In this document: positions 27,501 to 30,500 of the stretch, piece after piece
Numbering within the stretch: position 1 is the stretch's first letter
Layout: the number at the start of each line of letters is the position of its first letter
Source of the DNA: Aldrovandia affinis
Lineage: Eukaryota; Chordata; Actinopteri; Notacanthiformes; Halosauridae
Direction: 5' to 3'
DNA: 64,000 bases
Assembly (NCBI GenBank): GCA_029706075.1
Contig: JAINUG010000052.1
Span: 2,817,498 to 2,881,497, forward strand
Notes under the pieces: generated by a model
What the model was told of the DNA's origin: nothing
Seen by the model: the letters and a program-made list of their open reading frames with translations, nothing else
Database searches by the model: none
Translations under genes and position numbers: made by a program

Positions 27501-30500
27501 ACCATGACATCGGCCTGAACCGTGAGTTACCCCCCGTCTCTCAGCCACTGAGAATCGGCGCTTGTGTGTATACCAGCTCGCTGGATATTATTCAGATTGT
27601 ACAGTTTATGGTTTCCAAAATGTGTGGTCGAAGCTGCCATGATTTACCCAGCTGTGCAAGAACATTTCCGAATTTGGTTCCAATTACAGGACACCTTCAA
27701 TGCAAGGGGGCCTTTTTTACCCCGGTGAAATTACTCTGGGAGACCCAATAGTACTGATGAACACACACGGTTGAGCAGGTTCAACCTTCCAGCGGTTTTT
27801 CCAAAATTACAGAATTTAACTAATCATGGAAACACCAGGCATTACCATTATCAAAGCCAGCGATTCCATCAGTTTATTTATTTATTATTTATCTGTTTGT
27901 TTGTCAGGGACATAGCAAAAAGCATTGTTACAATGTTAAAAAACAAGCATCAGATGCATCGCATTAAGTGTTCATAGCCAAAGGCTAATTTCCAACATCT
28001 GTCCCCAATAAAATACAGATAAATGTTGTGGTCTGCCCTTCTGCCCGGTGTAGCTCCACCGGGGGTGGGGTGATGCACAAGGACCTTTTTAGAGGGTGTA
28101 GGCCAGGGGTGTCAAACTCATTCCGTCGAGGGCCGAGTGTATGCAGGTTTTTGTTGCAACCAATGCACTACTCCAGGTGATTTCAATTAGGTCCCTCCCT
28201 TGGTTGAAGAAGTGGGCTAATTAGTGAAATCACCTGGTGTAGTGCATTGGTTGCAACAAAAACCTGCACACACTCGGCCCTCAATGGAAGGAGTTTGACA
28301 CCTGTGGGTAGGCGATGGAAGAACTCCAGAGGAGGCAGGATTCCAAAATAAAACGATGATTTTATTAACTTATTTGCAAAATCACAAAAAAAAGGCATCA
28401 TCAATACTTGATGACTTAAAGAATCTTTCCCAAACCATCAGCAAACTCCAACCATCAAATATTACTCCACCACCCAATATGACACAAAACAGTCCTCTTT
28501 ATACAGTCCCAAATTGATATCAGCTGCCAGTAGTCCCAATAGCTTCACTGGATTCAGCTGGTGGCCACGTGTGAGACTGCAGGCTGCTCGGAGCTATAGT
28601 CCTGATGGCTCCAGTGGCTCTAGTTAAAGGGTCAGGCAGCCATTTCCCCGTGTTGCCCCTTGGGATGCCACACCTGTAATATGAAAAGCAACTGCTTATG
28701 GTGTTGGCTTTGATTTTGATATTTATTGATATATTTATTTGACAGACACTTTTGTCCAAAGCACCTTCCAAGGCCATTATGGAAAACAACATGGGTAACT
28801 GCAAGCCACATACAGAGCATACAGTAACACTATAGATATGGCAGTCAGTGGTTTAGTTTGTAGTTTGAATGCCAGGATTGTGGGAAAGCTGTCACTGGTG
28901 GAGGATTGTATCTTGCAATTCTCATCATCTCTCGGATCTTATTCTGTTTCTTCACCCTCTTCCTGTGCCACGGTCTGCAGACAAGTCATGCTTCAACACG
29001 CTGTTCAACTTCGAGGACATGCAGGAGATCACACATCACTTCGCCGTGGTCCACGTAGACGCCCCAGGCCAGCAGGAGGCCGCCCCGCCCTTTCCCACTG
29101 GGTAAGTGAGCAGGTTCCCGGTCAGCAAGTTTGTGGGACCTCAGGGCCTGATTTGGGCCAGACTCTTATCCGTGGAATCTTGGGAAAAATTCAATTCAGA
29201 ATGTGGCCCTCTAGGGAGGAACACATTCTTAAACTGGTGAAATGTTTTTCGCATGATAAAACCGCTGTTCAAATGTAAACAAAAAAAGCTGTGAGCACCA
29301 TCCTGAACAGTGTTAAACTGACCCAGCAGGACTATACAGACTGCTCTCTTAGGAAAGCTCATTAGGTATGTGTGTGTGTGTGTGTGTGTGTGTGTGTGTG
29401 TGTGTGTGTGTGTGTGTGTGTGTGTGTGTGTGTGTGTGTGTGTGTGTGTGTGTGTGTGTGTGTGTGTGTGTGTGTGTGTGTGTGTGTGTGTGTGTGTGTG
29501 TGTGTGTGTGTGTGTGTGTGTGCAGGTACGTGTACCCCACCATGGATCAGCTAGCCGAGATGCTCCCCTCTGTCCTGACTCATCTGAAGTAAGTATCGTC
29601 CTCCTGGCCTGGCCTTATGTGAATGTGCCCTTCTGTTTCTGGGTGTGGCATGCCATTGGCCAGCTCCGCAATGGCTGGTACCATAAACTCTTTCCCTTCC
29701 ACCTGTGAGCATTAGACAAATATATCCTGTGGCAGTTTTTAAGGTAGAGCACACTGTGTTTTTTAGGTACAGCGCACTGTGTTTATTAGGTAGAGCACAC
29801 TGTGTTTATTAGGTAGAGCACACTGTGTTTATTAGATAGTGCACAATGTGTTTATTAGGTAGAGCACACTGTGTTTATTAGATAGTGCACAATGTGTTTA
29901 TTAGGTACAGCACACTGTTTTTAAGGTACAGCACACTGTGTTTATTAGGTAGAGCACACTGTGTTTATTCGGTACAACACACTGTTTATTAGGTACAACA
30001 CACTGTGTTTTTAAGGTAGAGCGCACTATGTTTATTAGGTACAAGACACTATGTTTTTAAGGAACAGCACACTGTGTTTTTAAGGTAGAGCACACTGTGT
30101 TTTTAAGGTACAGCACACTGTGTTTATTAGGTACAGCACACTGTGTTTATTAGATAGTGCACAATGTGTTTATTAGGTACAGCACACTGTTTTTAAGGTA
30201 CAGCACACTGTGTTTATTAGGTAGAGCACACTGTGTTTATTCGGTACAACACACTGTTTATTAGGTACAACACACTGTGTTTTTAAGGTAGAGCGCACTA
30301 TGTTTATTAGGTACAAGACACTATGTTTTTAAGGAACAGCACACTGTGTTTTTAAGGTAGAGCACACTGTGTTTTTAAGGTACAGCACACTGTGTTTATT
30401 AGGTACAGCACACTGTGTTTATTAGATAGTGCACAATGTGTTTATTAGGTACAACACACTGTGTTTTTTAGGTAGTGCACACTGTGTTTATTAGGTACAA

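Follow-up and report, generated by a model that had tools for sequence, protein, structure and literature searches.

A (TG)77 repeat in place of the polypyrimidine tract before coding exon 5 of an ndrg3-like gene in Aldrovandia affinis

In a 64,000-nt stretch of Aldrovandia affinis DNA (the window), a perfect (TG)77 repeat stands in place of the polypyrimidine tract at the 3' splice site of intron 4 of a gene that looks like ndrg3. With somewhat less than even confidence, we favor the reading that a TG microsatellite lying between the AG of this intron and a remote branch point has grown in copy number, giving a UG-repeat acceptor from which exon 5 would be mostly included but leaky. We infer the expansion from the purity and length of (TG)77 in one sequence, and we think that the acceptor works through the distant branch point with some leak.

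The gene was modeled on the forward strand as 15 coding exons with GT-AG introns, running from 6463 to 49138 and giving one open frame of 372 aa. Exon borders were drawn from protein similarity and the GT-AG rule rather than from transcripts, and the count of 15 leaves out possible small exons in the 9.4-kb last intron (39516-48962). The predicted product matched the Pfam Ndr family (PF03096) with 401.5 bits over model positions 1-283 of 283. Its best solved match was human NDRG3 (640 bits, E 7.5e-192, over 1-372), compared to 471 bits (E 2.5e-140) for NDRG1 and 366 bits (E 1.8e-108) for NDRG2. By similarity, the gene thus looks like ndrg3, closer to NDRG3 than to NDRG1 or NDRG2, in a comparison that took in these three paralogues and left out NDRG4. 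Immediately ahead of the ATG lies an acceptor-like site (exon from 6460), which suggests a non-coding exon upstream of the start codon, and "exon 5" is used here for coding exon 5. The elements surrounding the repeat are as follows.

28981..29101, + strand: ndrg3 coding exon 4, 121 nt, donor TGG|GTAAGT
29102..29525, + strand: ndrg3 intron 4, 424 nt
29369..29522, + strand: (TG)77 perfect dinucleotide repeat at the end of intron 4 (TRF, 77.0 copies, 100% match)
29523..29525, + strand: CAG, the 3' splice site of intron 4, the sole one without an early stop among five acceptors translated
29526..29588, + strand: ndrg3 coding exon 5, 63 nt, phase 2/2, beginning GTACGT, 20 residues plus split codons
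29589..29594, + strand: exon 5 donor GTAAGT (GAA|GTAAGT), strong, with a score of 8.73 on an approximate vertebrate matrix
31359..31419, + strand: ndrg3 coding exon 6, 61 nt

A first-pass annotation of this DNA had described 154 bp of perfect TG ending 3 bp before a 63-nt exon 5 of phase 2/2, and both descriptions proved correct: 29369-29522 is (TG)77, followed by CAG, and the exon lies at 29526-29588. Perfect TG, GT, CA, or AC runs of at least 8 units occur 12 times in the window, the second longest being 32 nt. A first-order Markov model of the window gives an expected longest TG run of ~4 copies, and chance alone is therefore excluded for (TG)77. The repeat holds no A and no AG, and no A occurs between 29368 and 29524. 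The annotation had also reported that a pyrimidine tract is missing, which is true for the last 157 nt of intron 4; a short pyrimidine tract, CTGCTCTCTTAG, sits upstream of the repeat at 29341-29352. At positions -22 to -4, the pyrimidine share of the exon 5 acceptor was 0.47, the lowest of 15 (next, 0.53), and its longest pyrimidine run was 1, the shortest of the 15 (next, 2).

Assembly of long, perfect dinucleotide repeats is difficult, and the length observed could be an assembly artefact or represent a rare long allele. We regard this as quite improbable, given the perfect purity of the repeat and a window with no N anywhere in its 64,000 nt, and even a shorter TG tract here would leave the acceptor with no pyrimidine tract. 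With 77 pure copies, the repeat should differ in length between individuals, and any leak may therefore vary between them too.

At its 5' border, the repeat carries an AG adjoining a donor-like sequence.

29363..29371, + strand: TAG|GTATGT at the 5' border of (TG)77

The repeat is flanked by AGGTATGTG (29364-29372) and AGGTACGTG (29524-29532), and AGGTAYGTG has three occurrences on the + strand of the window. The matching borders could reflect growth of the array between copies of a duplicated exon start, or chance. Recursive removal of the repeat via TTAG|GTATGT (29365/29366) was rejected for lack of a usable branch point in the 160-nt remnant, because the only two A's there belong to the GTA at its start and the CAG at its end. 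Read-through of the repeat from the 29366 acceptor was likewise rejected, being out of frame at 77 copies; when copy numbers of 74-80 were translated from this acceptor (n=7), the frame stayed open to the normal end only at 75 and 78.

Since the repeat contains no A, an adenosine branch point could sit no nearer to exon 5 than 29368, at a distance of at least 158 nt, compared to a usual human branch point to AG spacing reported as 29.3 +/- 11.9 nt (PMC9508853). Upstream of the repeat, the next AG stands 162 nt from exon 5, vs. 16-82 nt at the other 14 acceptors, so that the AG exclusion zone of exon 5 (162 nt) is of the size, at least 100 nt, by which distant-branch-point exons are recognized. 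Two predicted branch points are considered here.

29318..29322, + strand: predicted candidate branch point CTGAC, with its A at 29321 (205 nt before exon 5); top score, 5.58, on an approximate matrix
29358..29362, + strand: predicted alternative candidate CTCAT, with its A at 29361 (165 nt before exon 5); score 3.06, rank 8 among the 12 listed

All acceptors, donors, and branch points here were scored with matrices built on approximate vertebrate frequencies, and the scores are distinct from those of MaxEntScan. On the reading that we favor, the branch point would be CTCAT (A 29361) or CTGAC (A 29321), and a spliceosome scanning for AG would meet none inside the repeat. Between CTCAT and the true 3' splice site, there is one AG only (29364-29365), 3 nt away. 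Two observations go against this reading. CTCAT, the candidate that avoids intervening AGs, scores modestly (3.06 vs. 5.58), and downstream of the best-scoring candidate, A 29321, several AGs come before the true 3' splice site, so that the TTAG at 29352 should be favored. A non-A branch point inside the repeat might also serve in place of a distant adenosine. Published observations speak for the reading that we favor: longer branch point to AG spacing is reported to weaken splicing in fission yeast (PMC9508853), and 68/235 human exons with AG exclusion zones of at least 100 nt are given as cassette exons, vs. 47 expected (PMC1431707).

Two other TG tracts lie close upstream of ndrg3 acceptors.

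31305..31344, + strand: TG-rich tract before exon 6, with a perfect 14 units at 31317-31344; ends 14 bp before exon 6
38675..38696, + strand: (TG)11 upstream of coding exon 13 (exon from 38734), with a normal pyrimidine tract between

The former had been noted in the annotation as TG repeats 14 bp before exon 6, in agreement with a tract end at 31344 and an exon start at 31359. Within ndrg3 (6463-49138), all 12 TG/CA clusters of at least 5 units are TG when read in the sense direction (binomial p 0.0005), and clusters of at least 4 units number 19 TG and 1 CA. Upstream of the gene, there were 1 TG and 1 CA clusters of at least 5 units; downstream, we counted 1 TG and 0 CA at this cut-off and 1 TG and 6 CA at the cut-off of at least 4 units. 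A TG tract is present within 60 nt upstream of 3/15 ndrg3 acceptors (ring shifts, P 0.0007-0.0019 by length cut-off), in a test chosen post hoc and with the exon 13 case having a normal pyrimidine tract. This excess near acceptors agrees with the reported enrichment of human pUGs near splice sites (PMC12276007) and with the pUG-fold sequences reported from fish introns (PMC12962679).

The exon 5 acceptor scored 5.56 on the approximate vertebrate matrix, the second weakest of 15 (range, 4.96-15.4). We consider its last 20 nt poor rather than uniquely weak, because three other ndrg3 acceptors have scores close to it (4.96, 5.67, and 5.94) and it outscores 92% of all AGs in the window on the same matrix. 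A rival account would be that, in this lineage, a (UG)n tract suffices as an acceptor signal, that exon 5 is constitutive, and that repeat length has no effect, which we find possible but, overall, unlikely. Human apoA-II exon 3, whose GU-repeat acceptor is reportedly efficient, would be a precedent for this neutrality. In ndrg3, two neighboring acceptors are TG-rich and the CDS is intact, and exon 5 codes for part of the conserved hydrolase domain (Ndr score 401.5 bits with it, 347.3 bits without), so that strong skipping should be selected against; thousands of pUG-fold sequences are also said to sit in fish introns (PMC12962679). However, near its AG, the exon 5 acceptor lacks both an A and a pyrimidine run, and the published fish cases (PMC12962679) have CA partners, which are absent from intron 4.

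If the acceptor is leaky, as in the reading that we favor, the leak would be divided between in-frame skipping and splicing to the TTAG ahead of the repeat (29352), which leads to an early stop.

29341..29352, + strand: competing upstream acceptor CTGCTCTCTTAG (TTAG, ending at 29352), with a score of 4.54 at 29353 on the approximate matrix

CTGAC (A 29321) and CTGCTCTCTTAG together form a small complete acceptor ahead of the repeat. Use of this TTAG adds 173 nt and brings a stop at codon 110 (PTGKAH*), and such transcripts are probably decayed. Skipping of exon 5 had been called frame-neutral in the annotation, and translation confirmed an open frame of 351 aa, vs. 372, with no early stop, at the cost in Ndr score given above. 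The exon 5 residues align with human NDRG3 108-127 in the alpha/beta-hydrolase domain, just ahead of a strand, which upholds their earlier assignment to the hydrolase-fold core. They fall outside the cap-like part of human NDRG3, described as Ala167-Arg233 (PMC7022630). Because exon 5 belongs to the alpha/beta-hydrolase domain and lies outside the cap-like part, the 351-aa product is likely unstable. The exon 5 donor is strong (8.73, approximate matrix), and inclusion is therefore favored; given this donor and the place of the exon in the core domain of the protein, we would expect exon 5 to be included in most transcripts.

The annotation had stated that UG repeats ahead of acceptors bind TDP-43-type proteins and promote exon skipping, and this is in print for CFTR exon 9, where a UG tract before the acceptor is a TDP-43 target and many UG together with few U repress the acceptor (PMC12171016). 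Its interpretation of the ndrg3 repeat in terms of skipping and length tuning is plausible and borne out in part: the sequence upholds the tract, its position at the acceptor, the missing pyrimidine tract, and the frame-neutral skip, whereas skipping itself and its tuning by length are hypothetical. The annotation made no mention of the lack of A and the remote branch point that goes with it, of the rival upstream AG and its early stop, of the donor rebuilt where exons 4 and 5 join, or of the absence of a CA partner. That TDP-43 on the UG tract produces substantial, length-tuned skipping of exon 5, and thereby a physiological NDRG3 isoform 21 residues shorter, seems doubtful to us. The CFTR precedent, the frame-preserving skip, and the tight binding of TDP-43 to UG repeats reported in a preprint (PMC12697283) speak for such a model, but the residues of exon 5 belong to the alpha/beta-hydrolase domain and not to the cap-like part (PMC7022630), the short product would likely be unstable, and the exon 5 donor is strong. 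A literature search for NDRG3 exon 5 variants gave no isoform evidence among the papers listed, which says little. GU-repeat acceptors can, moreover, be efficient, as is said of apoA-II. Since exon 5 belongs to the core domain, we rate a regulated short isoform below both leak and neutrality.

A second route to the same in-frame skip is possible from the sequence of the exon 4-5 junction. Exon 5 starts with GTACGT, and therefore the junction reads TGG|GTACGT, which scored a moderate 5.96 as a donor on the approximate matrix, above 3/14 native donors. Among the 14 exon-exon junctions, one other has a GT (1.35) and 12 have no GT at the exact junction. Once exons 4 and 5 were joined, a second splice from this regenerated donor to exon 6 could remove exon 5, a reaction that the exon junction complex would normally block. 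We give this route little credence. It draws on the sole usable donor-like score among the 14 junctions, and exon junction complex-repressed skipping of such RS-exons, which are defined by an exon start that recreates a 5' splice site scoring above a cut-off passed by most native donors, is documented in mammals for hundreds of mainly constitutive exons (PMC6224609); however, the stronger donor of exon 5 itself (8.73) should favor inclusion, and both scores come from the approximate matrix and not from MaxEntScan.

In fish introns, with zebrafish as the case described, AC/GT pairing is reported as bridging the intron and bypassing U2AF2 (Lin 2016, via PMC9198270, PMC12962679, and PMC9508853). 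For ndrg3, this would require a CA repeat near the donor to pair with the GU tract and replace U2AF2, which we consider barely credible. No CA/AC runs of at least 3 units were found in intron 4 (424 nt). When a (UG)20 probe was matched against the rest of intron 4, the best duplex had an energy of -16.8 kcal/mol and was equalled or beaten by 95/100 mononucleotide shuffles, and the fold of intron 4 plus exon 5 was poorer than those of 100/100 dinucleotide shuffles (z +2.94). With no CA partner and no duplex-energy advantage, an AC/GT hairpin within intron 4 was rejected, and the published fish route round U2AF2 does not fit this intron because the CA partner is missing.

Intron 5 contains a minisatellite at 29735-30908, consisting of ~51.6 copies of the 23-bp unit GTTTATTAGGTACAGCACACTGT and starting 146 bp after exon 5; many of the GTTTATTAGGTACAGCACACTGT units carry AG|GTA motifs resembling splice sites. 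In a simple duplex calculation, the (UG)20 probe gave -34.5 against the minisatellite, vs. an average of -22.8 in 30 mononucleotide shuffles, none of which went below -29.8. In an ensemble calculation over 29102-30908, the repeat and the minisatellite formed 94.5 expected pairs, vs. 105.7-130.1 in dinucleotide shuffles (n=8). We set the simple duplex result aside because the ensemble gave fewer pairs than every shuffle, and looping of exon 5 by pairing between the TG tract and the minisatellite was rejected on the same 8/8 comparison, which also counts against an AC/GT hairpin.

Elsewhere in the window, a reverse-transcriptase ORF (11949-12785, - strand; RVT_1, E 1.4e-20) lies in the 19.3-kb ndrg3 intron 2 (8144-27415), and a retrotransposon-like ORF with RNase H and integrase zinc-binding domains lies in intron 6 (33576-34520). 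Upstream of the ndrg3 start codon, 4145-4732 shows weak DDE_3 transposase similarity (E 0.0077, below the curated cut-off). Tandem arrays occur at 16249-16362 (perfect 8-bp unit TCACGCTC, x14.2), 58054-58240 (62/63-bp unit, x3), and 59608-59949 (178-bp unit, x1.9). Rfam gave 0 matches in the window at gathering score.

Although pairing with a CA partner can be set aside, the tract itself may bind protein or fold, and on the reading that we favor, leaky inclusion would follow from binding of TDP-43/CELF-type proteins to the tract or from its folding into pUG quadruplexes. One TDP-43 is reported to cover about 5.5-5.9 repeats (PMC12697283), and one pUG fold comprises 12 repeats (PMC12276007), with a stated minimum of 11.5-12 UG repeats (PMC12962679, PMC12276007), which the 77 repeats exceed. 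By arithmetic, (TG)77 has room for about 13-14 TDP-43 or 6 pUG folds. The two states are described as mutually exclusive (PMC12697283, PMC12276007). TDP-43 binding is reported to be cooperative on long GU repeats (PMC8523171) and non-cooperative overall on (GU)12 (PMC12697283). TDP-43 binding and pUG quadruplex folding are thus plausible modulators of exon 5 inclusion. A more elaborate version, to which we assign only a slim chance, would make this orphan UG acceptor a structural switch: TDP-43 would hold the 154-nt tract open, with the AG at a distance from the branch point, compaction of the tract by as many as six pUG quadruplexes would bring the AG within reach, and inclusion would be set by the level of TDP-43 and by copy number in steps of ~12 repeats.

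UG repeats ahead of acceptors underlie human disease (CFTR), and fish introns reportedly carry them often; 77 perfect units with neither a pyrimidine tract, a CA partner, nor an adenosine form an extreme natural test. If exon 5 is well spliced, it gives a measure of the reach of the vertebrate spliceosome over a UG tract when a conventional polypyrimidine tract is missing. If it is poorly spliced, ndrg3 dosage or isoforms would ride on a microsatellite that is likely hypervariable. The acceptor would also allow pUG folding and TDP-43 binding to be compared at one site. Among the papers listed by our literature searches, none was seen to describe this acceptor of ndrg3, which is not proof of absence, and the closest known systems each share part of the arrangement.

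In CFTR, about 11-13 TG units are followed by a T5-T9 run. As in the (TG)m(T)n of CFTR intron 8, a UG repeat lies directly before the 3' splice site in ndrg3 intron 4; unlike CFTR, ndrg3 has 77 units and no T run, and any exonic silencer or skipping would be hypothetical in ndrg3. In human apoA-II exon 3, a GU repeat of ~16 units is said to replace the polypyrimidine tract beside the AG, as reportedly described by Mercado in 2005. The ndrg3 acceptor likewise has a GU repeat in the place of the polypyrimidine tract, and differs in its 77 units and in the distant branch point that these would force if an adenosine is used. Like the fish introns with AC/GT repeats, intron 4 has a GT repeat at its 3' end, but the complementary AC repeat is lacking. 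Judged by its sequence, then, the exon 5 acceptor stands apart from the UG acceptors described in fish and comes closer to the human type, and it would work in the manner of CFTR exon 9 and apoA-II exon 3.

Exon 5 also resembles the distant-branch-point exons of PMC1431707 in having an AG-free stretch of >100 nt with candidate branch points near its far end; unlike those exons, its AG-free stretch is pure microsatellite, and its branch points are predicted only. With more than 12 perfect UG repeats, the tract is similar to pUG-fold RNAs (PMC12276007, PMC12962679), its own folding being putative, and its 77 repeats compare with 61 in the longest human pUG reported (PMC12276007). Its length, its lack of A, and its lack of a CA partner together make the ndrg3 exon 5 acceptor an extreme case of a known arrangement.
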